In this document: positions 15,087 through 57,185 of the stretch, piece after piece
Numbering within the stretch: position 1 is the first letter of the stretch
How the letters are laid out: each line of letters opens with the position of its first letter
Assembly: GCA_030272585.1 (NCBI GenBank)
Contig: BSYQ01000008.1
Location: 1,674,001 to 1,738,000 of the forward strand
Length of the DNA stretch: 64,000 nucleotides
From: Bryopsis sp. KO-2023
Taxonomy: Eukaryota > Chlorophyta > Ulvophyceae > Bryopsidales > Bryopsidaceae
Reading direction: 5' to 3'
Position numbers and translations under genes: made by a program
Notes under the pieces: generated by a model
The model's database searches: none
Seen by the model: only the letters and a program-made list of their open reading frames with translations
Told to the model about the DNA's origin: nothing

Positions 15087-17690
15087 TCATTTCACAGGAC
15101 CATTCAAACTGGTGGAGCTCTGCCTTGTTAGGTTTCCACCCCGGCGATTGAAAGATCTTGCAGCGGAGGCCGGATTGGACCTCCACGGCATCGACCGAAG
15201 GTCCCAGGCGGTACCGGCCAAGGGAGCTCTTTTAAAAAAAAAAAAAATAGGGGAAAAAAAGCAAAAAGCAGAGCGCAAGAAAGGGTGAAAAGGAACTCAT
15301 TAAAATGAACCATAAAATGAACCGAAAAATTATGCAAGAAAAAAAAGCAAAATCTAATTCAAAAACATGCAAAAGCGTTTGATTGATGGAGAAGCCTCCA
15401 GGATATAGTTTCTTGAAAGATCGTCAGGCAAATCTTACCCACCCCAACAAATCACAAAACCCAAAACTTCAAATATTTTGAACTATGAAACCAAAAAATG
15501 CCTCAAATGCAACCCCCTTTCTTTTCACCAAAATCAAGGCCGAGGGAAAAGGAAAAACAAAAAAAACCATGAAATCGCTACCTGAACAAGTCGAGGGGTT
15601 GATGCGGAATTCCGTTCTGATCGAGACTCCTCTCGAGGCTTTTGTATTGCCCCACAACATGGCCCAATTGGCGCTGGAGGCGGTTGACTATGTTTTCCTC
15701 CTCCATCTCCATCTGATTCTCCAAATTGATCTTGTCTTGATTGAGCTTCGTTGCGGAGCGAGACAGAGCCCCGACCTTGATTGAAACAAAAATAGAAATT
15801 ATCGACAGCCATGTTAAGAAAGAATTATTTTTTTTCCCCCATTTGTAACATTGAGCATTTCTGTTTCTGAACCTTTTCTCCACTCCTCCACCTCACAACA
15901 CCAACAAAATAAACCAGGTTGTGAAAAAATAGTTAAAAAAACAAAAAGAAACAGCAAGCAATAAGCAGGTTAGTACAAACCTGCTTATTGAGCTCAGACT
16001 TTTCGGCTTGAATTTTCCTCTTCTCTTCGTCAAGTCGGCTGACCTGCCGGCACCAAGACAGAAATCGTCATATTCCCTTTTTTTTTTTTTAAAGCCCAAA
16101 AGTGAAAAAAACAAAAACATCTCAATGATCTCGATCAAATGAAAACTCCATTTAGGTGTTTCCAATCAGCAATCACACCGGCATAAATTCCTCACTATGT
16201 AAAACATGAACACCACAAATGCCATTTCAAAAGGAAAAAAGAAGAAAATAATAATATAAAAAAACTCCTCTTCCACGCCCACCCCCCCCCACTTTCCAAG
16301 GTTTAATATCCAGACCACACAGAGGAGGACCCAAAAAAAGGAAAAATCAAGTGCAGATCTGGAGAGGATGACTTTCACAGCAGGGCACAAACAAGAAAAC
16401 GGACAGATAAATCCATCATTGATATCAGTGTATTTTTTTTGTGTTGTGTTTTTTTGCACCTGCTTGTGAAGTTTGTTGACGATATATTCCTGCTCTGCCT
16501 CCAGCTTATTTTCCAGATCCACTTTTTCACGCGTCAACTTGACTTTTTCTGCATCCAAGTGAATAAGCTGTCTTTGGAGCTTTCCCACGACAGACTCCTG
16601 TTCCTCCAGCTGGCGCCCCAGGAGCATCTTTTCATCGTTCAACTATGGATTTCAGAAAACAAAGGACTGTAAAAAAGAAGACCGATCGAGTACTGTTCTT
16701 TTCCGTAGTGGTGCAATTGATGAATGCCAGCAAAAAACCAAAAAAAAGAGTACCACTACAAAGCGAAAAATTCGACCGAAATGAAGTTCGGGTTTGTGGA
16801 GGGATGTCTAGTTCGTTCAGAGCATGCTTGTTTTCCTTTTTTTTTCTTTTTTTCCTCGGTCCAGATTCAGCTCAGAAAAAAACAAACAAGAGCTGAAGTG
16901 CAAGAAGAATGAATGCAGCTTCCGTGGACTGGGTAGATTCTGTTGAAGGAAGTGGCAGTGGTACCTTTTCCAGGCGCTTCTGCAAGTTGTTCGTCAGAAA
17001 CTCTTCCTCTTGCTCCACCTGTTTTACAAAAAAAAAGCAAAAAAAAACAAACCTGAATCAGCAGTACAGGTAATATCCAGTTTTCGAGTTCATCCCAAGA
17101 AAATCTGTCGTCGAGAAAGTCGTCAGCGACAGAAAGAAGAAAGAAGCATACCTGGTTAACCAGGTTTTGCTTTTCCATCTTGAGGTCCTCGAGCCGCTTC
17201 ATCATCTTGTTGATGATAAACTCTTCCTCCTGTTCAACTTGGGTTTGCTGCGCGAGCAACCCGACGTGTAAAAAATTGCTCAAACAACGATAAACTTCAA
17301 CCAGCGGAGCAATCAACAATCGAAAGGGCGATAAGGTACCTTTCTCCTTTCATTACGAAAAGACCAGAATCAGAGTCACAGATTTTTCACCACAAAGGGA
17401 AAAAACAGGGGGCTCACCGCAGCGAGGTTTTGCTCCCTCTGGAATCGCAGCTCCTCGCAATAACATTCGCTTCTTTTCCTTTCTTGTATCACCTGCGCAA
17501 TCCAGCTCGGTGTTATTACGTCGCTCCATTCGACTCTCGAGGATAACATTCGAAAAAGAAACAAACCACCAGAAAAACAGGCCTCGCATTCCTGCACAAG
17601 AAGACTCACCAAATCTTTCACTCGAAAGAGTTCCTCTAAAATCTCCTCCCTACTCTTGCTGGACCAAATCTCCTGGTCAGAGCTCGCCAT
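15087..17690 (-). CDS. CCDC6-family coiled-coil protein
   Basis: Eight exons read from 17690: 17690-17610, 17492-17418, 17247-17152, 17018-16965, 16642-16460, 16043-15981, 15775-15582 and 15228-15087. All junctions are in phase, giving about 250 residues. The protein is one long coiled coil built from repeats of the type EQE(E/Y)(F/Y)I(V/I)NK followed by a Lys/Arg-Leu heptad and EK..L, the hallmark pattern of CCDC6 (H4/D10S170) and its plant and protist relatives. The tail after the coiled coil is short, basic and Ser/Arg-rich. Human CCDC6 is a cytosolic and nuclear scaffold linked to DNA-damage signalling; a scaffold role here is inference. The final acceptor is a tandem AGAG: the first AG gives a 46-residue tail, the second (2 bases on) would shift frame into a longer tail ending near 14935. 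The ATG at 17690 follows a pyrimidine-rich leader. Confidence 0.82.
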
Positions 17691-39528: not shown

Positions 39529-41106
39529 TTTGGGGTGGTTGGGAAAAAAAAAGGAAAAAAAGGAGAAAAATACCCTTTTCCTAATTTGGAAGGAAAAAAG
39601 AATGTAAGGGGAGAATGCGATTCGTTTTTGGACATGGGAGGGATATGTTTGCTAGACTCATTTTTTTTGGTTTTTGTGTGAAAAAGAAATGTAAATCCAT
39701 CGTTTATTGGAATGTGGTTGGGTTGCAATGGCTTGTTTTTGGATGGTTTGCGAGTGTTTTTTTTTTGGTTGTTGGCAGCTCTTTTTTTCTTTTTTTCAGG
39801 AAGGGGGAGGGGGTCATTGTGACGGTTTGCAAACACTTGGCCCCCCGCTGATACGCTTTTATGTATTTTCGGTTGAATTCGATTGCGGTTTTGCTATCCA
39901 CCAGTGCTTCTTGTGGGTTTTCAGCATCAGCCGGGCTGCCCCTCATTATTGGATGGAAATTTGAGGGGTAAAGAAAAGAAAAAAAAAAAAAGAGTGAGAA
40001 GCAGAAAGAGTGAGAGGGGAAAAAAGGGTGGGAACATGTTTTGAAACTCGATCGAGACGGACAAGGAAAGAGAGGAAGAAAAAAAGTACGACCAGAAAAA
40101 AAAAAAAGACCATGAAAAAAATCAAGAGAAACATATGTCGATACAAGGGGGTTGGGAAAAAAAAAAAGATTATGTATTCATGATGCGGGGGGTTGATTTT
40201 CAGAACCTTTGATCTTTGCATCAACGTTTGTGCAGTTATTGTGTTTTTGGTTTTTGGATATTTTCGTTTTCATAAATCGGTCCTTGATGGTTAATTCTTA
40301 GTCCCTTTTTCTTTTCTGTTTTTTTTTTTTTGAACATTTTTTAATTCTCCGACGAACATATGGTTGGTCGATGGCAGGGGAAAAAGAAGAGGAAAAAAAA
40401 AAGGAAAGAAGGGGGGCACATGAAATGCAGCGAGAAAAGGATTTGAGGGAGAGATCCTAGGAAAACACCGTTTTCTTTTGTGTGTGTGTGTGCTTGTGCT
40501 TGTTTTGGAAGCAGCAGGGATTTGAGGGGTTTTATTATAGGGGGAATTGATTCGAATTTGACCGATCGTTGCCATGATGTCCTATTTTGAAACTTGTACA
40601 TTTGAGGGGGTTTTCTGTAAAACCATTCGAAAAGAAAAATCCTGATTTGGCATCAGAATATTTTCCTGTAGGAAACTTAAAACCAAGCCAAAACTTGAGC
40701 GAACAAACCGTCTCTGTTTTTTTTTTGGGGGGGGGGGTCAATTTCCTCTCTTTGTTTGGCCTCACTGCTACCTTTCTCAGTGAATGAAATTTCTCGAGGT
40801 TGCGGTGTCTTTTTTTCTAAACTTACATAGCTCCTGTGTGTAGGAAAATTAAATCTACCTCTCAGCGAAAAGTCCAAACGTGAACCCCTACCCCAAAACA
40901 CTTAATTCCAGAGAATCGATTCACGAACAGAAATGATGGATGTTTTTTTAAAGCCTTCAATTTGCAGCCCAACATTTTTCAACATTTTCTGCGATTGAGA
41001 ATTCTTACGTGAACCATCAGCGAACCTCAAAAAACACGCGAAACCAAAGACGTCCACAGTAATCGATCAGCCCCCCTTCCGCAAGCAAAAAAAAGACGAG
41101 GGGAAA
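39529..41106. other. Purine- and homopolymer-rich intergenic DNA
   Basis: Long A and A/G runs on the plus strand at 39540-39600, 39965-40130 and 40380-40450, with G-runs near 40730. Apart from the TPR-like fragment at about 39820-39930 nothing is recognised. The last 200 bases probably hold the promoter of the nuclease gene. Confidence 0.5.
39820..39930 (-). pseudogene. Orphan TPR-like fragment
   Basis: On the minus strand a stretch reads EALVDSKTAIEF, then N-R-K-Y-I-K-A-Y-Q-R-G-A-K, which fits one tetratricopeptide repeat (small residues at helix A, Y-x-K-A-Y at the turn into the next helix). No other TPR exon is found within 1 kb on either side, and the frame runs into low-complexity sequence. 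I read it as a relic or transposed exon of a TPR co-chaperone-type gene. Chance resemblance is possible. Confidence 0.4.
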
Positions 41107-44093
41107 ATGTCGAACGGGTGTGCAGTCGAACTCACCCAAGGCTGCAGAGTGTCCGTCGACTATTGGAATCGCAAAGAGAAATTCCAAGCTTGTTTTCTCA
41201 CGCACGCGCACACCGACCACACCAAAGGCCTGTCTGATCGATGGCCCGGTCCAGACATCCACTGCACAGAAGAAACCAAACGCTTCATTCTCAACAAATG
41301 GCCGGGGCTGGAGGAAAAGATAGTTACCGTTACGGTGGGGGACGCCGTGGACCTATGCCTGACCAGCAGGAACGAAGAGCGTTTGTGCGTTACCGTGACG
41401 CCCATCGATGCTCGTCATTGTCCGGTGAGTTTTTCGAATCTGGGGGCTTAAAACAGCAAGAAAACGACGTTGATGTGATGTTGCAGCACCGATCCATTTT
41501 TGTTTTGATTGTTCGATTCTTCTTTTATCACATCTGCCGGTGCTATTCCGATCGAACAAACCTTCTTGTTCAAAAATCACATGGGTTCACATGACGCTGC
41601 TGACTACAACACAACACAGATTTCTTAATTTTATTTTGATTGTTTTTATTTTTTTTAAACAAAAAATCTATGTGGGAGCCATTGAGATCCTGTGTGTGTG
41701 ATTGTGTGTTCTTTGGTGGTCCATGATTCTATCGATATTTTTTGTAACAGGGATCTGTGATGTTTCTTTTCGAGGGTTCGTTCGGTAGAATCTTGCACAC
41801 TGGTGATTTCAGGTTTGTGTCATTACGTTGTTTTTTTTTTCTTTTTTTCCAATCAGAATGACTGGTGCTGATGATTGAATAATTAATGGTGATCAATGAT
41901 TGGACCTGCGGTTTTTGCAGGAAAAACTTTGAAAAACTTGCTTTGAAAGACCACCTGTTTCATATTCTTTTGTTCGTTGTTTTTGTTTTTTTCACAGATG
42001 GGAGCTGGAGGATGGGTGCATGGAAGTGCCAGATGTTTTGTTGACTGGCCCAATCGACAGGCTTTACTTGGACAACACATACTGCAATCCAGAGTGAGTG
42101 CATTATTTATTTTTTTTTGCTTTCGTGAGCCTGAGTGGTTCCACATTCTTTTTCAGGCAATTTTTTAAAACTTTTTTCCCAAAGGAGTGCGTGCGTTTTG
42201 CTTTTGTAGAAAGAAATGTAAAGTGTACCATGAAATCCAACTCATGGTGGTGGTCTTTTTTTTTGCCATGTTTTTTTTTTTTTCAATCAAGGTACAAATT
42301 TCCCCCTCGGTCCAGCGAGATCAAGAGAATCGTCGACATTGTGAAACACAACCCAGAATTCAAGGTGGTCATCGGGATGGACAGTCTCGGAAAAGGTGTA
42401 AACCCCTTTGCTGTTAAAAAGAAAAAAGTGAAAAAAAAAAAAAAACCACCACAACATGATGCTGTTTTTATTGTCTTCCCTGACCTTTTTCTTGTTTTGG
42501 TGGAGTTCATAGCTCATGTGTCGAACTGTCATTTTTATTTGGTTTTGCTATTTTGGGTCAAATCTCAGGAAAAAGCATCGATCTGAATGTAATATTTTTG
42601 GTTTTCTAATGGCACCTTCCAGAGGAATTGGTGGAAGTGGTGTCCCGAGTTGCGGAAGAGGCTGTGGGGGTTTCGGAATCCAGAGTCGGGGCTCTAAGAA
42701 TAGCTGGCATTCCAGAGGAATGCTTCACCACCGACAAGGAGAATGCGAGAATCACAGTCATTCCAAAGTGGACGGTAATGAATGCTGTGTTTGAGCCAAA
42801 AAAACAGAAAACAAAAGAAAAAGAAAAGAGGGGGGGGGGAACTACTTGCATGCAAAAGAATATTTACTTTTGAATTGGCCTGTTTGTTCTTTTTTTCAGG
42901 ACCCAAATGAAAACGAATAAAATGAAGTATTGTTTGAAAAGTGCATCCTTGCTGCTGACTTCTTCGTTTTCTTTTTTCCTTTCTTTAAAGGGAAAATTGG
43001 GCGTCAATCTATTATCGAGACCTTTTCAAAAAACCAGTCATGTTGAAAGAGATCTTTCCCTCGTTTTCTTTTCGGAACGGTGTAGGTGCGCCAAGACGAT
43101 TTGGCCTCCACCACCCCTCCCAGCATAGGCATCGTCCCCACTGCCCTCTTCAGCCAACCTTACCGATACCCCACCAAAGTGCCTACGAATTCCTGGAGAA
43201 AACAGCAATTGAGGGTCACCGTCCCTTACTCCCTGCACTGCTGCTTCGTTGAGATCGAGGCTTTCGTGTCGATTCTGCAACCCAGGGAAATCATAGGCAT
43301 CGTCAAAACATCCAGGGGCTCCGACATTAACCCCCTCTCCCATTTCCGGCACTTGTTGGCAGGTGCAGGTGGGGTTGCTGAAGCTGACCTGACCAACCCA
43401 TTCGAGAGGGTTTGCCGAGGTCAGGATGGGGAGTTTCCGAAATCAATGGAATGCCCCCATGATCGAAATCCATCCACTGTGAGGCGCCACTCGAGTGAGC
43501 CCATCCCGAGAACTCCGGTGTCCTCTCTGGAAAAGATGCCCCCCAGTTTCGAAAGGTCGAGAAATTCTGACGATACCTTGCACCAACAAGGAGGAAATAT
43601 TATCGATCTGAGTCAATCCCCTGTGGGTGAGGAGAGGTCCAAAAAGAGCGAAGGGGTTGATGTGGGGGTCAGGCGGGCGTTTTCCGAGGAGGAAATTAAA
43701 GTGGGGGTGGCTGTGGGGCTGCTGGAATCGGGGGGGAGGGGTGTGAAGATGGGTGGTGCAGGTGTGGTCAGCACGAGGTCTTGGCGAACGAGGTTCACTC
43801 GTCCACAGAGGTCTGCGCTCAAAATCGTACCGCAAGGGTGCGTCAAGGAGAATAAGAAAGAGGAGAAGAATTTCGATGGATGTGCAAGGAATGATGGTGT
43901 CAGTCATGAAGGCGTGAAGCAGGAGACGATTTCCACAGGAGGAGGAGGAGTGATGGTGGAGCAGAAGGAGGAATTGAGGGCACTCCATGGTGAGGGAAGA
44001 AATCCTCCAGCAATGCTGAGTCGATCAATCCTTTTGGCTGGAGGTCCACATGGCTATCTAATTCAGAGGCAACGACGTTTTGAAAATCGCTGA
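41107..44093 (+). CDS. SNM1B/Apollo-like DNA cross-link repair nuclease
   Basis: Six exons, 41107-41424, 41751-41812, 41998-42093, 42292-42395, 42623-42774 and 43086-44093, join in phase to 579 residues. This is a metallo-beta-lactamase/beta-CASP nuclease of the SNM1 (Pso2, Apollo, Artemis) group, 5' exonucleases acting in interstrand cross-link repair and, for Apollo, telomere-end processing. Landmarks are VDYWN, HAHTDH (HxHxDH zinc site), DARHCPGSVMFLFEG, the Asp of LHTGDFR, LYLDNTYCNP, IGMDSLGKEEL, and the DRMBL block VPYSLHCCF...FVSILQPREIIGIV. Overall spacing is closest to Apollo/SNM1B. All zinc ligands I expect are present, so it should be active. The C-terminal 200 residues, encoded by the long last exon, are Ser/Glu-rich and disordered. 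It is likely nuclear. It converges with ARPC4. Confidence 0.92.
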
Positions 44094-45202: not shown

Positions 45203-45721
45203 TCAGTTGGATAAACCCCTCAAAAAGCTGGTGGCCACGGCCCTCCCCCTGGTGTTAACGGCCAACTTCATCCGATTGATCTCCGCATCCAGGTCCTCCA
45301 CAAACTGGCATATGAAATCCACCAGCTTCGTCCGCCTCATCACCAAGCAATGCGCATCGGTGATCAGAAAGCTGATGTCGAATCCATCCACAGGCACTCT
45401 CCTCAAGACCTGAAAGCTTTCGGCCCTTTGCATCAAGAATCGAACGTACATGTGGCACAGCACCGTCTCCAGCGCGTCGCAGCGCTTCACTTTGATGCTC
45501 ACGCGCAAGGAGTTGATCGATTGCTCGATCAAAATCTTCTCATGGGCGTTGCGCGAGATGCACACTGGCTCCAGCAGGAGTTCTTTGCTCGTTTGGTATT
45601 CCACCTCGGGTTTGTTGTGACGCTCGACGTCTTGGCATGGGAAGGTGCGCACGCAGACCGCCTTGTTGAGCGTTTCCCTGATGGATTGCAGATATGGACG
45701 TATCGAGCTCGACGCTGCCAT
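45203..45721 (-). CDS. ARPC4: Arp2/3 complex subunit 4 (p20)
   Basis: A single uninterrupted frame of 172 residues, close to the usual 168, carries the family's landmarks from end to end: RPYL near the N-terminus, [62 protein letters not shown], and a final MKL.VN.R.R block. ARPC4 pairs with ARPC2 to form the structural core of the Arp2/3 complex that nucleates branched actin. The organism should therefore make branched actin networks. The start is the ATG at 45721. Unlike every other gene resolved here it has no intron, which suggests intron loss or a retrocopy; there is no visible poly-A tail just after the stop. Confidence 0.97.
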
Positions 45722-46758
45722 GTCTGGACTACTCTTTGGTCGGCAGAATTCGGGTGTGGCAATCTGAGCAGTATTGTGAGCAGGTCAATGGACAGACGTC
45801 GATGTTTGGCTTCAACGTGTGGGAGTATGAGTTCGTTTCAACAGAGTGCAGCATGATTGTTCTGAGAAATATCTGAATGTTTCACTGCTCAAGGATGATT
45901 GTTGGGCCGACATCCTTCCAATGCCAATGTCACGTGCCCAACACCCCCTTTTTTCCACCTGGACATGTCGGCCAAAACTGTACCTGAGAAGTATGAAAGA
46001 GAAAGTTCCCTGACTTCAATGAATCAATCAATCAATAGGGGCAACCCACAGCACTGACTTCACAAAGGGCATGTCTTTCACTTAATCATGGGACTTTAAT
46101 CTTGGGCTAAATCTTGAGATTGCCTTCGAAACATGCCGACACCAATGATTCATTTGCCTTCGCAAAAGCAAGACTTGTTATTTCTTCCATATCCTCGTTT
46201 CAACCACAAACCATCCACCTCCACTGCCATCTTAAAAGTTTTATTACCAGCGCTGATGCTTCCTTAACTTGAAGAAAAGCAATATTTTCAATGAAGACTG
46301 CTCCATCGTGTGGATGGATCCTAGCTTTGTTTTTATGCAATGTAAGCGTTTCATTGATGAAGCAAGCACAAACAATATTTTCCTCTTGGATTTCTAATAT
46401 CCACAACAAAATGATCAGACAAGAACTTCGCTGGCCATGGAGTGCCACCGCGCATGTCAGAATGAGCACAGAAAAGTGAAAACCGAAATTGGGCGAAATC
46501 CTCTTTGGCCCAACATCCTTGCACCGTCAGGCTGTTGGGCAAACGTCGTCTTTCTCAGATTTTACTGGCGGCTGACTGGAGTTGGAATTCCGAAGGTGGC
46601 ATTGTCCTCATCCAAGCCGGAATGTTCTGAAAGAGAAAGCCCTACAATTATTTTTTCTTAATGACTTGCATGCATGCATTCAAAATACGCATGCGTGCCA
46701 AATCCTTCATTGCTCCTCCGAACAAGACACCACCACACTCGTTCCAGGGGGCTCCAGG
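45722..46758. other. Divergent intergenic region
   Basis: Lies between the divergent ARPC4 (minus) and DUF1338 (plus) genes, so it should contain both promoters. No exon, RNA or repeat recognised. Confidence 0.5.
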
Positions 46759-49700
46759 ATGATTCCGTCGGCGAATGTCCTTTCCCGACACCCTTTTCCT
46801 TGCAGTAGAGTGCTGGGTCGATTTCCGGCAAGGGTGCAGTGCGGCGCCGACTTCGACGCCTCCACGGTGAAGTCCTCGAAAAGACGAGGAAGGAAGGGAA
46901 AGAAGGGGGGTGGGGCCAAAAAAGCCAAAGAGGAGGAAAAATTCCAAGGGCTCGACCCAGCGGATCGGTGGAGATCGCCACAAGATGTGGAGTACGCCAT
47001 GGAGGTAGGCAACATCCCACATTGAATGATCAATTATGCATTGAGAGGTTGCTTGCTTCCATTATACGATATCCCAACAGTGGATGTTGGATTTTGATAT
47101 GTGCAGAAATTTCTGTAAAGAAAAAGATGGAGTCCTGATCATTTTCTTCTCTCCATATTTGATAAATGCACATGCAGAACTGCGCCCAATCCAAGCATCC
47201 TTGGATTAAAAAAAGTTCATGGTGGTGGAGGTCACCAATTTGTATTTTCATTTTTCGCAACCAATACGATCAAAAAATCAAATAACCAATTCCACAGCTA
47301 CGATTTGACATGATGCACCATTTTTCACTTGGATGTTTTCATGGCAGTCTAAAAATAGCACTTTTTTGTGCAGGAGTTACCACATCCTATTGTTGGAGGC
47401 GTCATTCAGGGAGCCATGGATCGATATTTCGGTAACAGCAGGGTTTTTTCCCTCCCCCCCCCCTCTTTTTTTCTGGCTTTTTTTTTGAACGTTCCATGGG
47501 TAGCACAACAATGTGGAGTTTTTCGGTCTTCGTTTCTTTTTTTCTTTCATGAATTTATTTTATCGCATTTAAAAAAAAAATAATAACTGGAACAGTGAGG
47601 ACGGGGCAAGAAAAATAAACCCCAAATTTGATGCGCAAAAAAAACAAGAGGGAAAAAAACAACTGTGTGATATGACAGACCAGAACCCGCCGATGAGTGC
47701 TCTGATGGACGATCTCTTCCAGAAAAAGTACAGCGAATCCAGGGTGGCTTTCGACTACTTAGAATTCCGCACTTATGAGGCAAGCTTGACACAAAAAAAT
47801 GATCTAAATGAGTTATATGAAGAAAAAAAAACACTGTCAAAATTGCTATTGCTTGGAAGAATTCATACCAGGATGTCTCGCATGCAGACTTGAGTGTGTA
47901 ACGAGATTCGGTTTTGTTTTTTATTTTTTTTCTTGTTGTCAGATTGAAGGCATGGGGATGGATCATATCGCTGGCTTTTGGGAGGATTTTGGCTACACGA
48001 AAGTGGAGGACCATGATATTTCTGAGTTTGATGTGACGTACCGATGGCTTGCACCCCCATCTGGCAAAGCGCTCCCCAGAATAGTTATTTGCTCCATCAA
48101 GGTAAGTTTCTGTCGTCTTTTTTTTTTTTCCTCCCAGGGAAGAATATTGTGTTTTTTGGGGGAAATCAATCTCATGTGTTGACAAAAAATAAAAAAAAAA
48201 TATCGTACCTTCCAAATCTTCCCTGGATGACATATTGGATTACTTATTATTTTCGTTTCAGTTTTCTGGATCTTAAAAACATTTTTTAATTTTTTGTTTT
48301 AAATGATATCAGAATCACAGTACTTTTTTTTCTTGTCGTGCTTAGTTGGAAGTGCTGTCGGAGCAGTCACAGCAAATGATTAAAAAGAGGTTGGGGACTT
48401 GGCCAGAAATGGCAAAAAAACATGTCAGTGGAGCGATCGCTGCGAGAGCCACTCCCTGGGATGCACCAACTTTGGTCAGTGTTTTTTTTATTCCGGATTT
48501 TCCATGCTGTGTTTCTGTTTTTTTTTCATTTCAGTTCATCCCCCCCCCCGGTTTTCAAAAAAGAGTATGACAGGTGGTTTTGAAACAGGCCTTTTTGCTG
48601 TGCTTTTTTGTTTTCGCCCTATTTTTCCAAAACTTTTTTTTTGCGATCGTGATGCTTGCTTTCTTCTTTTTTGTGGGTGGTGGACGGGCAGCAAAGGGTT
48701 ACGTGATAACATCGAAGGGGGTAATAAATCGTACATCTTATTTCTTTTTCGTAGGATGAGTTTGACCGGCTCTACACAGAAAGCGAATTCTCAGCATGGT
48801 GAGTTCCCTATACGGACATATTTTTGTCGACAGTGAATTTCTTGAACCAAAAAAAAAAAAAAAGGGAAAAATTCTGTGTCGTGCTGTCAAGATAAAAAAA
48901 CCCCACCACCCACCCACCCCCTGAAAGATTTAAAACAAGTATATATATACGTCCCTCCTGTTTGTTTCGTTCACCCCACAACTTTTTTTTCCCCACCCTT
49001 CCATCGTCTCATTTTTTTATTTTTTTTTTTCAATGAATGCTTTTGTCTTTTCTAGGGTTTTGATCAGCGGCTACGGAATTTCATGCGCTGCTCTGTCTGT
49101 CAACGAAATGTCGAATCCCGTCTACCGATTTGGAAAACCACCAACCCCCGTGACATTGGAGGGCATCCTGGAGGGCGTCGCCGAAAACCCAACTTTTTTG
49201 CTCAACCCAGGAGATGAAGCAGAAGTCCTGCATGTACGCCCTGTTTGTTTTTGGTAATCCTTTTTTTTTGTTGAAGCATCTAGGAAGAAGTCCTGCAAGT
49301 AAGCCCTGTTTTTTTTTTTGGTAATATATATATATATATATTTTTTTTCCAACTGCTCGACGGAGTCTCGTCGATTTTTTGCTATGTATTTGCATTGAAT
49401 ATATATTTTTTGTGTTTTTTTTTCGTTTTTTTTTTCAAGACGAATGATGCAGGGACTATAGCACAGTTTGCCACCATGGCGAATGTTTTGGAATACATCT
49501 TTGCAGATGGCCAGGTAACAAGAGCAAATTTTTTTGTCTTCCACTCATGCTTCATTTTTCAACCTTTTTATGTTATTTTGAAGTGTGCGTTTTGAGGTGC
49601 CGGGTTTTTTCTGTCGACTTTTTTAATTAACCAGAAGTTTTATTTTTTTTGTGGGGTGTTCTTGCAGAGAATGGTGGTGGTTGGTTCATACTTGAGTGAG

Positions 49701-50831
49701 TGAACCAAAAAAAAACGAATAAAATGAAAGAAAGAAGCTGGTTTGAAGTGTTTGTACTTTCTGGAAAACTTAAGAAAACCTAAAATAAGAAAACAATAAA
49801 AAACAAAAATCACGCCTCCAAAAAAAAATCCGCTGAAAAGAGAATGAATAGAGCTCTTATCGCTCACTTGAATAGTGGATGGGCAGCATGGTCTGACTGA
49901 ATTCAAAAACGATATATATATATATATTAAATATGTGATGTCAGATCTCTTATTTTTATCCACACAAATATCTATTCGTTTTTACTTATTTTTTGGGAAG
50001 GTTTTTTGAAACTGTTGATGATGATTTGCTTGCAATAACAGGTTGTGTTGAGAGGAGCATTTTGCCGGAGTGCAAGGATGAAAAGGTAGGCCGTATAACA
50101 CCATACATATCCCTGAGGGTCAGCGTTCAAGAGATTTTCTTTTAAAAAATATGTCTTTGTCGGTTTTGTCACTGCAGTGCTTGAAACATAACATCCTGCA
50201 TTCAAACTTGCAGCAGCCAGCTAGGATCCCCCCACCCCCCCGCTCAAAAAATAAAAATGAAAATAAAAAATAAACGCCGGCAAAGTCGCAACTTTTTGGT
50301 CAGTGTAAAAAAACAAAAGCAAAAAAAAAAACAAAACTGTTTTTTCCATTAAAGGGGGGGGGGTGCATTTTGGGAACTTTTTTTTTTAAACATTTGTTTT
50401 GTGTATGTTTTAAAGGGGGCTGGTTCGAAGCGATCGCACTTGTACGATGGAATCGATCCAGGATTGATGCAGAAAATGCTGTACAGCACAGCGATGGCAT
50501 TGCCAATGACTGCAGAGCAACTGAACGTCCAGAAAGAAATTCACAACAGAGCTCAAATGGATGGATACAACCTCAGAGGTACAGCAGAACAACCCCATCC
50601 GTTTTTTCCAAACTTTTTGGGAGAGGTTTCAAATGTATTGAAACGGATTTTTTTTAGCCGATCTGATTCAAAAAAAAAAAGCAATTTGGGGGGTTAATTG
50701 CTTTGCCTTGTTTGTGTGTGTGTGTTTTCGTTTTTTTCCCAGGGGAAGGTGACCCCGAGGAAGAAGCGATCATTGATAGATACTTGGAAATCATCATGGC
50801 GGAAAAGCAACAGCAACACAATGCCAACTGA
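46759..50831 (+). CDS. DUF1338-family protein (2-oxoadipate dioxygenase-like)
   Basis: Twelve exons, 46759-47004, 47374-47431, 47679-47779, 47943-48101, 48346-48474, 48755-48798, 49056-49233, 49440-49514, 49668-49695, 50042-50085, 50416-50578 and 50743-50831, join in phase to 437 residues. The layout matches DUF1338 proteins (bacterial HglS/YdcJ, rice FLO7), Fe(II) enzymes turning 2-oxoadipate into 2-hydroxyglutarate in lysine breakdown. Matching blocks are EFRTYEIEGMGMD, FWEDFGYT, RWLAPPSGKALPRIVI, ESEFSAWVLISGYGIS, EYIFADG and SYLSCVERSILPE. The three metal ligands I expect (His in the xxFR block, His in the NHVT block, Glu in the YIEF block) read Tyr, Cys and Ser, so catalysis is doubtful. 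The first 35 residues, basic and Arg/Ser-rich, could target an organelle. The third intron is GC-AG. The C-terminus is Gln-rich. Confidence 0.72.
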
Positions 50832-52010: not shown

Positions 52011-52673
52011 TTATCTCAATTCAGCCTTCTCATCTGGCATCATTCCCTCTCGCACGTACACGATACGGCCATCCAGGTATTTTGCCATAACTGGCGTTTT
52101 TCTCGATGCAGCCAGCCTTTCAGGATTCTTCATCTTTTTGTTACCGGGGTTCTTTTTGGTGGGCACCTAATCAGACAAGTTGGAAAAACAAAAAACTTTT
52201 CAAGAAATCTCTCTCCACAAATTTCCAGCCCAAAAAAACACACCATTGAGCATCTTTTCGGCTGCTGCTTTTTTTTCCTCCTGTCATTATGTGTTTCAGA
52301 GAAAATAATTTTACAAGCAGCAAAAACAGTTCGGAACTGAAAAATTGCGAAGGGCAGAATCGTCTCCATTGTTGCTATATTTTCGAGTAAGGACCCCTGT
52401 TTATAGGACAATGAGAAATATATCAGAAAAGATTACATATATGTATTATTTTGCTGACCTCCATGGGGTGCTCTTTCAGATACTGGATGCGTTCTGGTCG
52501 GCAATCCACGAACGGCAACTTCCAGAGATCGATGCCAGCGTCATCAGCCATTTTGTTCAATCCTTTTTTCTCGATAGTTCGAAGGGCCTGCCTCACAAAA
52601 AACGACACCCCCCAAACCACACAGATATTACTCCCTGCTTTTCTTTCTTTCTTTCTTTCTGTCTTTCTTTCTG

Positions 52674-52742
<69 letters not shown>

Positions 52743-53557
52743 TTTTTTTTTCTAATTGGTTGCGGTGAATAGGAAGCTTTGAGAGATATTTTAGTTTTAA
52801 ATGGACAGTTAGTGTTATGACAGATTGTTTGTCCTGTCCAATCTTTACAAGCGTCTTCTATATTTACACCAACTTATTTCTGGCAAATGCAAGAAAATGG
52901 TGACTCTCCCTTCCCCCTCCAGAAAAATTAAATTAAAAAATAACAAAAGAATAAGAAAAAGGAGCCTGGAAATGCACTGCCTTCTTGTTGCATCTCAAAT
53001 GTGTTGGGAAGCAAGCGATGCTGCAAATTACAAAAGAAAGGAAAAAAACAACAACAATACACGGTTCGATGTTGGCCTGTGAAGTGAAATTTTCCTTAGT
53101 TTACCTTGGTCGAAATTTTCATCTTCACCCATCGCTGCCCCTCAGGCCAGTAAATCTTTCGTTTCTGCAAGTTGACGTTCTGAACCTTTTTGTTCCTCTT
53201 GTGCGAGAAACTGATGGAGAAACCGTTGTTGCGCTTCTTTCCCGTCAGGTCGCACACGCGCTTGCCTAACCGAACCACACGAAACAACCCCAGTTACTCA
53301 CGCACATAAAGGTCTAATATCCCCGACGCCGCACTCTCGCGTTTCGTCCGTGATTCCAGAGGTGGCGAGGCACGATAAACCAGCATGGAACTTGTCCGAC
53401 TGGTGAGGACATACTCACTTTCCACGGGGACGACGGCCGCCCTCTGGACTCGTTGAGGTGTCGAGATTTGCACCCTTCTGAACGCGTTGGTGAGTCCCGC
53501 GAACTCCGATCGGGACGAAGAGGCCACCAGGGCCCGGGGCTTCAAAACCGAGTGCAT
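52011..53557 (-). CDS. rpl28: Plastid ribosomal protein bL28, nucleus-encoded
   Basis: Four exons read downwards: 53557-53419, 53265-53105, 52587-52459 and 52166-52011. They join in phase to 194 residues. The first exon is a Ser/Arg/Val-rich presequence ([20 protein letters not shown]...), suited to organelle targeting. The mature core starts at [20 protein letters not shown], continues [20 protein letters not shown] and [20 protein letters not shown], which is the cyanobacterial/chloroplast form of bL28, a large-subunit protein. After the usual end of the family the protein runs on for about 75 residues, ending PDEKAELR, a lineage-specific extension. A complex (secondary) plastid would normally need a signal peptide first; the N-terminus is not clearly hydrophobic, so it may be a simple transit peptide or an upstream exon may be missed. 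Confidence 0.9.
52641..52742 (+). repeat. (TTTC)n microsatellite
   Basis: About 25 copies of the tetranucleotide TTTC, with two GTCT variants near the left end, lie in the second intron of the bL28 gene. Confidence 0.97.
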
Positions 53558-54527: not shown

Positions 54528-57185
54528 ATGGACGTTGAACGAGCGGTGGTGCGAACAAGCCGTGCAAAGGCAGCAAGGAACATGCGAACGGTGGGTGCAT
54601 TCCGTGGCAAGTCGGCGTCGCGCGTTGAGTGCCGATGTTTTTTCGACGGGAAAAAGTGACGGTTTGGTTTTGGAATGAACAGGACGACCAAAGTATTTAT
54701 CTGGAGGAGCTGCTCCGAGAATGCAGAGACCTGTCGCCCTGCGAGGAGCTTTTCGGCGGGCCGGACTTCGCCGTCAGTTTCGAAGGTATTCTTAGCTGTA
54801 CCGTAGTGGGTGCCTACGCGCCAGATATTTTTTTTGCGTTTCCTTGAAGCCGGTGAGAAGGCGTCGCTAAATATATTCCCCCGTCGGTGTGTGCGTGCGT
54901 GTGTTGTTCGTCAGACAAGTCTGCTGCGAGGGATCGACCGAACTGCAACCCACAGGTAGGCCACAGAATCCCCCCACCTTTTCTGCTCCGTCCCTGCGTT
55001 CAGTCCCCCTCCCCGCTGCTGTTCGTAAACTTTTGAAAAGTGTTATTTTTGGCGTGCAGCTCTTCCGTCCATCTTTGTCAAGACTTCGCTTCAGTTTGTC
55101 AGCCGATTTACTGTTTTGGTTGTTTTATTTTCCTTCCTCGATACCGTCAGGTTGGCGACCATTGGAGCGCTGGGGCTGCTTTCCAAACCGACAGGGCAGC
55201 AATTTTTCCGTTCGACGCGGGCGCGAGCGCTGCGCGCGGAAAAAAAACAGTTTCTGCTGGACGCGCGGAACGGTTAGTCATGGATCGCAGAGACACCGTT
55301 GAGTCAACCAGTACCGTGGCGCCCCCTCGCAAGAGGAAAGCGCTGCACATCGGCGACCTGGAGCCGGAGCGAGACTCGCAGGACGACTCTCTCGTTAAAC
55401 AGGAGGGCCCATATTTCCTCGACTTCGGTGGGGATGGCGACGTTTTTGGTGGGGGTGGCGAGGCGCTTATCGGCGACCAGCATTGGGGGGAGCCGACGTT
55501 CGCCGAGTCCTGTTTGGTGGCTTTGTCGAGGAGCAGCGTCAGGACCACGGATTTTTTCGGGGCTGCGGAGCCGTCCGCTTATCAGCAAGTTTCCATAGAC
55601 GGAGTCGGAATCCCGCCGACGAGTTCGAACGATAATTCGTGGGGAGCGGGTGTCCCGGACGTCGGGTTTTCGGACGTCAAGACGTCACCCAACCTGCTGT
55701 TTGAAACCATCGACACGGGGAGTTTCGAACAAAGAAAACTCACGGTGGAATTATCTACGTTCAATGAACCGTGGATCCCCGTTCATCCCCGCCGAGCCGA
55801 AACCGGTGTGCTAGGCTGCGTCGGAAGCAATTCAAGCCTCGCCACCCCTCTGTTCCCCGAAACCGCCGCAACCCCTCCGTTTTGCCCTGCATCGCCCGGG
55901 AAAGAGGCGCCCGCGGATGACGACAACGAGGAAACGGAAGAAGACCAGGAGTTCAGGGTCGGGGAGGAGGAGTCGAAATCTTCCAGCACTGGCGCGGAGG
56001 ACCAGTCTGGTGGGGGCGAACCGGAATCTCTGGTTCCGCGTCGACGCTCTCGACGAAGGGTACACCCTACCGCGAAATTCAGGGGGGAGGAGGTTTGCTG
56101 GACTCCCGACGACAAGGACGAAACCGAGGACGAGGAAATCGGAGAGAGTCCGCGGAAGGGAACGAGGTCGAACCGAAGTCGGGGTGGTAATCGAGGCAAA
56201 CACCGACGGAGTCGTTGGGATGGCGCGGATGGCAGCAGGAGACGGAAACCGCACAACCCTTGGTACAGTGTCTTTGTTACTCTCCTCACCATATCACCCC
56301 AGGCCACAGCATTAACATAATATTTGTGCTTTTATTTTTTTACATTATATTTAAAAGTTTTTTTTTGTCCTCCACGAGTATAAAGGCAGTGGTCTTTTCG
56401 AAAATCAGAGGAAGTGGATGTTGTTGATTTATTTTTCAAGCAGTTTTTTTCACATTATTATTTGCTGCAGGACGCTGGATGAAACCCGAGCGCTGGTGCG
56501 GGGTGTGGAAAAATGCGGAGGAGGAAAATGGGCTGACATCAAAAGGCTGGGCCTCAAAGAGATTGGCTCCAGGACGCCGGTGGATTTGAAAGACAAGTGG
56601 AGAAACTTGTTGAGAGTGGCTCTGTTGCCTCCTGAACAGATGCGACTGAAAAAGGTGATCACAGGAGAAATAATAATAATATATATAATAATTTCTTTTT
56701 GGATGTGGGTGAATAGGCCCATATCATTAATGTAGTGGATCATTTTTGCCACCCTTTCCTGCCCAAAATTGCACTAACAAATCCCCATTTGCCCCCAGAA
56801 GGAAGATAGAGTCAACAAAACCCACAAAAATCCACTGCAGAAAAGACTGGGCTGCATGGGGCTCTCAACCTCAATACATTTGACCAAATAAGAAAAATCA
56901 TCACCATCATGAGATAAAAAGCATTCCCCCCCCCCCCCTCCCCCCAAAAAAAGAAAAGAAAAGAAAAGAAAGAAAGGTAGGCTTTCTATGTGGAGCTGAC
57001 AGTGGGGAAATGAGTAAATATGAGTATTTGTTTAGATTTGTTTTTGTTGGTTTCAGATTGATCGTCGCCAGGATTTGCCGATGGAAATCCTGCAGAGAGT
57101 GAAGGAGCTGGCCCAAAATAAAACCACCAAGAGATCGCCATCGACAAATCTCATGCATTGTAAAATGGCTAAAATATCTCATTAA
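54528..57185 (+). CDS. Telobox Myb protein (TRFL/telomere-repeat-binding type)
   Basis: Six exons, 54528-54590, 54683-54785, 54915-54955, 55151-56262, 56471-56654 and 57057-57185, join in phase to 543 residues. The N-terminal 400 residues are acidic, Ser/Gly/Pro-rich and look disordered, with a basic PRKRK near the start of that part and an RS/basic patch before the Myb domain. The Myb domain spans about residues 440-500: WTLDETRALVRGVEKCGGGK, then KWADIK and the diagnostic telobox VDLKDKWRNLL. After it comes a P-x-Q...P-x-E-x-L-x-R-V tail as in plant TRFL proteins. These bind TTTAGGG-type telomere repeats or telobox promoters in the nucleus. An alternative last exon beginning 56801 (KEDRVNK...) with its own stop is possible. 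A second in-frame ATG at 55280 could start a shorter form. Confidence 0.83.

Follow-up and report, generated by a model that had tools for sequence, protein, structure and literature searches.

What remains of an enzyme when the residues that should hold its metal appear to be gone and the residue that should hold its substrate is still in place? The question is raised by a gene in a 64,000-nucleotide stretch of the intron-rich genome of Bryopsis sp. KO-2023 (assembly GCA_030272585.1, contig BSYQ01000008.1, positions 1,674,001 to 1,738,000 of the forward strand), which is referred to below as the window, the gene and its predicted product being the window gene and the window protein. The product is distantly related to an enzyme of lysine breakdown and resembles the DUF1338 proteins, which are argued in PMC7286885 to share one reaction across bacteria and eukaryotes. 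To judge from sequence comparison, it is probably a pseudoenzyme, a FLO7-type DUF1338 (HglS) homologue that lacks the Fe(II) site and has been retained for a long time.

Kinship with rice FLO7

The solved protein closest to the window protein is 6w1k (phmmer 6e-29, residues 94-380), and the second solved match, 3lho ('putative hydrolase'), follows at 8.3e-5. The PDB listing of 6w1k reads 'Hydroxyglutarate synthase' only; we take it to be the rice FLO7/hydroxyglutarate synthase, given the FLO7 structure in PMC7286885. Relatives for comparison were gathered from plasmids (15 records, four of them fetched), genome loci, viral contigs (four loci, two of which are the same open reading frame, or ORF) and rice. 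From genomes, 80 loci were taken, the best of 560 relatives and all located by way of two conserved blocks, a choice biased towards canonical proteins. The viral ORF that appears twice (L096 and L099, one truncated ORF on one viral contig) was excluded from the 87-row family profile and from the counts of near-invariant columns given below.

That profile scores the window protein at 117.5 bits, or 111.6 bits when rice is left out, and the best of 500 residue shuffles reached 3.2. Scores this far above chance bear out the preliminary description of this DNA, which had reported similarity to the 2-oxoadipate dioxygenase/decarboxylase family over most of the length; on the evidence of similarity along its core, the window protein is a FLO7-type DUF1338 homologue by common descent. 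By the curated Pfam cut-off it nevertheless falls outside the family, the model PF07063 giving it 19.6 bits (E 0.00064) where 25 bits are required; with the same model rice scores 156.2 bits, and the scores of three bacterial proteins are 231.2, 122 and 227.3. An NCBIfam search with the window protein returned nothing meaningful, and viral contigs searched with the window protein alone yielded no relative. In a 34-row tree the window protein adjoins rice (95/82) on a very long branch, the longest of the 34, which is saturated and leaves the placement unsure.

With rice FLO7 the window protein shares homology over the core matched by phmmer, the order of the conserved blocks, the substrate Arg and a targeting-like N-terminal segment. 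It differs in that only 28% of residues are identical, in carrying Tyr/Cys/Ser where rice has His/His/Glu, in a Lys/Arg-rich linker and an extra C-terminal extension of 57 aa, and in its score under the Pfam cut-off. The bacterial FLO7-type proteins (Bacteroidota, Deinococcota, Chloroflexota and others) are alignable with it throughout; they differ in keeping all three ligands in 86 of the 86 full-length rows fetched, and identity to the 86 full rows other than rice is 20-27%. P. putida HglS and E. coli YdcJ belong to FLO7's Pfam family, with the same fold and reaction according to PMC7286885; HglS and FLO7 are themselves only about 15% identical (PMC7286885).

Ligand columns and substrate arginine

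His70, His226 and Glu294 bind the metal in P. putida HglS and Arg74 binds the substrate; the mutation R74A abolishes activity, and the FLO7 counterpart of Arg74 is Arg64 (PMC7286885). The His/His/Glu triad named in the preliminary description is confirmed for HglS in that paper, and the family motifs given with it fit rice (DHFAFR, LNHTTIS, SYIEFAER). In the column of the first metal His, where 89 of 89 other rows have His, the window protein has Tyr128 (DYLEFR, opposite DHFAFR in rice). The column of the second holds Cys256 (ISCAALS, opposite LNHTTIS) where 87 of 89 other rows have His, and that of the metal Glu holds Ser340 in the best gene model (SYLSCVER, opposite SYIEFAER) where 87 of 89 have Glu, the two rows gapped at both columns being the truncated viral ORF. 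In the substrate column Arg132 is kept, and all 89 other rows likewise have Arg. Measured against the HglS enzyme, all three metal ligands are missing (the Glu under the best gene model) and the substrate Arg is present.

These assignments do not depend on the choice of method, phmmer, MAFFT and the alignment to the profile hidden Markov model being concordant on all three ligand columns, which lie inside ungapped blocks; in the profile alignment residues 126-132, 252-258 and 337-344 bear the top posterior mark ('*') throughout. Both His columns sit within exons. The replacement of both His is firm, and that of the Glu good, though not final. The preliminary description had read the same residues at the ligand positions, Tyr (FDYLEFR), Cys (GYGISCA) and Ser (SYLSCVER), with the Arg of xxFR kept, and all of these readings survive, that of Ser340 with the qualification imposed by a weak exon junction (see below). 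Asp127, the neighbour of Tyr128, is kept, and Glu130 lies two residues past Tyr128. The protein contains nine His in all, those closest to Cys256 being residues 214 and 305, 42 and 49 residues off.

Among columns that are near-invariant in the family (at least 97%), the window protein keeps 26 of 59. The figure for rice is 58 of 59, and for three diverged canonical rows, each scored against a reference that excludes it, 56 of 62, 57 of 61 and 58 of 62. Because retention is so nearly complete in rice and in these diverged canonical rows, the constraint typical of the catalytic family seems to have been lifted from the window protein. Its near-invariant columns are nonetheless retained more often (26 of 59) than its variable columns agree with the consensus (50 of 206), and its frame is open over 437 codons.

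Gene model and the exon 9/10 junction

The window gene, as predicted from the sequence, is an intact gene model. Twelve in-phase exons on the plus strand (46759-50831) make up 1314 nt encoding 437 aa with no internal stop, from an ATG at 46759 to a TGA stop that ends at 50831, and the same open frame (46576-47025) contains no ATG further upstream. All 11 acceptors have AG and 10 of the 11 donors GT, intron 3 having a GC donor. GC content at the three codon positions is 55/41/56% in the exons, and 35% in the introns. When the exon bases were shuffled a mean of 22.4 in-frame stops arose, and none of 2000 shuffles left an open frame. The preliminary description, which had proposed an open gene of 12 exons all in phase, proved exact in coordinates, exon count and phase. 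Homopolymer runs are abundant in the introns of the gene.

The junction between exons 9 and 10 is the poorest of the model. The exon 9 donor scores -0.3, against 5.9-10.8 for the ten others, and the exon 10 acceptor (50042) scores 1.9, against 7.6-16.8 for the ten others; the matrices are small, each derived from the ten remaining sites of the gene with the tested site excluded, so that the others are flattered. Donors at 49680-49759 and acceptors at 49780-50109 give 136 combinations, five of which are open to the natural stop. One of these is the model, another loses four codons, the GSY block among them, and the remaining three use donor 49699. None of the five has a Glu in the aligned column. 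The score of acceptor 50001 is 11.1 (1.9 for 50042) and that of donor 49699 is -2.3 (-0.3 for the donor of the model); joined, 49699 and 50001 stay in frame and yield SYLSEFFET, which requires a shift by one residue and 15 inserted aa. The model junction is preferred because it aligns gap-free to rice through the stretch (SYIEFAERLVLP).

At the other end of the protein, residues 1-30 include four Arg, no Lys and no Asp or Glu. The top 15-residue mean hydropathy for starts in residues 1-70 (a stretch within 1-84) is only 0.37, and a signal-peptide-like segment is on that account absent. Such an Arg-rich, acid-free N-terminus without a strongly hydrophobic stretch fits a mitochondrial or primary-plastid presequence, without being proof of one, and agrees with the earlier suggestion of a possible organelle presequence. 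FLO7 itself is plastid-targeted and imported into amyloplasts (PMC4737065).

Search for a second copy

The preliminary description had termed the gene a paralogue and proposed a search for a canonical DUF1338 copy elsewhere in the genome. No convincing second copy was found in the 91 Mb (28 contigs) with the window protein, the rice protein, a rice block or four motif patterns, so the label of paralogue is unsupported, and the window gene is probably the sole DUF1338-type gene of this genome. Of the 11 matches to the window protein, ten are its own exons (exons 9 and 10 went undetected); the eleventh, a weak one on contig C4 (E 0.89), spans residues 36-95, covering the Lys-rich linker. The PF07063 search produced no candidate and missed the window gene too, which makes it little informative, and the full rice chain matched nothing in the 91 Mb, the window gene included. 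An exon-sized rice block of 61 aa detected 7 of 7 positive-control records and had no match in this genome, again the window gene included, so the negative covers rice-like canonical copies with the block in one exon, and not distant or split ones. More generally, these genome searches are blind to copies whose probed blocks are interrupted by introns and to copies that have diverged as far as the window gene.

Among the motif patterns, DH.A[FY]RT matched once (contig C1), ESE[YF][AS]AW in the window and once on C1, ADKIFE once (C12) and SY.EFA.R once (C5). Written backwards, the first three patterns gave no matches and SY.EFA.R gave two; the empty controls for the three do not show their matches to be of chance origin. 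The matches outside the window were counted as chance. The two on C1 are on opposite strands with 3 kb between them; the first overlaps the end of a minus-strand frame of 355 aa, and the second is antisense within a plus-strand frame of 453 aa. The frame that holds the C12 match lacks the residues that come next in the family, and the match on C5 has an in-frame TGA immediately before it. No translated stretch outside the window exceeded 6.1 bits with the family profile, the 6.1-bit stretch being one on C1 that contains the motif by which it was found. The best three window exon frames score 15.6, 8.1 and 6.9 bits, and 30-60 aa fragments of rice, used as calibration, score -1.0 to 62.7.

Possible roles and competing explanations

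In a pseudoenzyme of this kind the VOC-type fold would, by homology, be kept, and loss of the Fe(II) site would abolish turnover of 2-oxoadipate to 2-hydroxyglutarate. The protein would be imported into an organelle and retained for a non-catalytic job, which might be to hold a small oxo- or dicarboxylic acid, or a partner protein, via the remaining Arg pocket. With Arg132 retained, an acid may still be bound in the pocket; binding of a small acid or a partner through it is the likeliest candidate for the retained job, offered as a tentative guess. More speculative still is the picture of the sole DUF1338-type gene becoming a metal-free organellar protein whose Arg-bearing pocket serves as an oxo-acid sensor, or supports new chemistry on Tyr/Cys/Ser. 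Were it true, a family thought to carry out one reaction across life would have a non-catalytic or re-catalytic branch. Of the earlier proposal of a retained non-catalytic or re-purposed paralogue, what stands is a retained FLO7/HglS relative without ligands, in an open frame. A re-purposed protein would fit the data as well; the paralogue part lacks support, with no second copy in evidence.

Several observations count against a pseudoenzyme. The comparison rows are skewed to canonical proteins (the best 80 of 560 relatives), and the loss is not selective for polar positions, since the window protein keeps 12 of the 25 polar near-invariant columns and 14 of the remaining 34. No close orthologue was found in the sequence collections searched. 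The Ser340 codon, divided A/GT, straddles the weakest junction of the model, and in two of the open combinations there a Glu follows one residue too late (SYLSEFFET, SYLSESILP), while a third has an Asp in that place. These junction results raise the prospect that exons 9 and 10 are wrongly modelled and that a real Glu lies near the third ligand position, maybe as part of a partial metal site, which would be compatible with a pseudoenzyme. We regard a wrong model as unlikely, though acceptor 50001 far outscores 50042 and pairs in frame with donor 49699: the splice matrices behind those scores rest on ten sites each, the given model is gap-free to rice where the alternative needs its shift, its insertion and a lower-scoring donor, and both His columns are replaced regardless.

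The remaining explanations differ in what they make of the divergence. The substitutes are polar and potentially reactive, Arg132 and Asp127 persist with Glu130 close by, and the branch in the 34-row tree is very long, all of which would suit a neofunctionalised enzyme whose VOC pocket was rebuilt on Tyr128, Cys256, Ser340, Glu130 and Arg132 for other chemistry, metal-free or with another metal; no relatives sharing the Tyr/Cys/Ser pattern were found, however, to show conservation of those residues, and this course of events seems improbable. The same long branch, together with the fewest family columns kept among the rows compared and the weak splice sites at exons 9 and 10, might instead mark a gene that died recently or is dying, its frame still open to all appearance. 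Yet 437 open codons and consensus dinucleotides at 11 of 11 introns coexist with 28% identity to rice, and drift of such length should have broken the frame, so that a dying gene is quite improbable. Hardest of all to credit is an active 2-oxoadipate dioxygenase drawing its ligands from elsewhere in the chain, for which the kept substrate Arg and the nine His could be cited, since three alignment methods place Tyr/Cys/Ser at the ligand columns in ungapped blocks and the nearest His on either side of the second column lie 42 and 49 residues along the chain.

Relation to known proteins

The reaction argued for the DUF1338 enzymes has been predicted for members that keep the Arg (PMC7286885), and the window protein, in which the Arg is kept and three ligands are seemingly lost, would mark a limit of that prediction. 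Another eukaryotic group off the active-site consensus is a Brassicaceae DUF1338 subclade, which is its mirror image, being enriched in proteins that keep His/His/Glu and carry Gln or Met in place of the Arg (PMC7286885). His/His/Glu occurs in 86% of 2417 Pfam members (PMC7286885), and entries without it have thus already been counted. Since the window protein falls under the Pfam cut-off, such surveys of Pfam members would miss ligand-less relatives that are equally diverged. Titles and abstract openings in the DUF1338, HglS/FLO7 and pseudoenzyme literature, among the matches listed, included no ligand-less DUF1338 protein.

The supply of substrate gives hints of little weight. PF16653 (saccharopine dehydrogenase C-domain) has no match in this genome and was detected in 2 of 14 control genomes. 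PF16870 has four matches at two places on contig C3, 6834378-6835059 (-) and 7480509-7481245 (+), and for both of these E1 gene pieces, which are of the 2-oxoglutarate dehydrogenase type, the solved 2-oxoglutarate dehydrogenase outscores DHTKD1 (95.5 vs 78.9 and 125.2 vs 78.8 bits). A route from lysine to 2-oxoadipate is perhaps absent; exon-split genes can escape family searches.

Some of the relatives deserve mention in their own right. Two Deinococcus plasmids (L012:1788-5556 and L013:1-2771) carry a canonical DUF1338 gene between genes for a flavin adenine dinucleotide (FAD)-type oxidoreductase and an aldehyde dehydrogenase, a neighbourhood that looks like a catabolic operon. Flavihumibacter petaseus has two FLO7-type DUF1338 genes on one contig (L048, L068), both motif-intact. 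On the contigs labelled viral in IMG/VR, two loci (L097, L098) keep all ligands, and the ORF of L096/L099 stops before the second His.

Coordinates and neighbouring features

Table 1. Exons of the window gene and the codons at key positions (window coordinates)
Feature	Position	Strand	Remarks
Exon 1	46759..47004	+	Holds the start codon, residues 1-30 (presequence-like) and the Lys/Arg-rich linker (about 36-60)
Exon 2	47374..47431	+	
Exon 3	47679..47779	+	GC donor; block FDYLEFRT
Codon TAC, Tyr128	47756..47758	+	Column of first metal His
Codon CGC, Arg132	47768..47770	+	Substrate Arg column (HglS Arg74, FLO7 Arg64); kept
Exon 4	47943..48101	+	
Exon 5	48346..48474	+	
Exon 6	48755..48798	+	ESEFSAW (W finished by exon 7), the family ESEYAAW block
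Exon 7	49056..49233	+	Block GYGISCAALS
Codon TGC, Cys256	49084..49086	+	Column of second metal His
Exon 8	49440..49514	+	
Exon 9	49668..49695	+	Final base is first base of Ser340 codon
Exon 10	50042..50085	+	First two bases finish Ser340 codon (metal Glu column); poorest acceptor in model
Exon 11	50416..50578	+	
Exon 12	50743..50831	+	Stop codon; end of 57-aa C-terminal extension (residues 381-437) beyond profile match

About 1 kb from the DUF1338 gene and divergent from it, a minus-strand frame at 45206-45784 contains a nearly whole ARPC4 domain (ARP2/3 20-kDa subunit; PF05856, 3.8e-70). Farther off, the plus strand has PF07522 (DRMBL) above cut-off at 43086-44090 and a PF12706 match under cut-off at 40999-41448, and the region from about 40999 to 44090 may hold pieces of a DNA cross-link repair metallo-beta-lactamase gene, which we presume to be SNM1-like. 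The 64-kb window contains no tRNA and no Rfam match at the gathering threshold. A short PF09755 (DUF2046) match lies at 16870-17349 on the minus strand (25.3 bits, cut-off 24.7), a Myb-like DNA-binding domain at 56355-56732 on the plus strand (PF00249, 2.1e-8), and a TTTC tandem array of 29 copies at 52640-52753.

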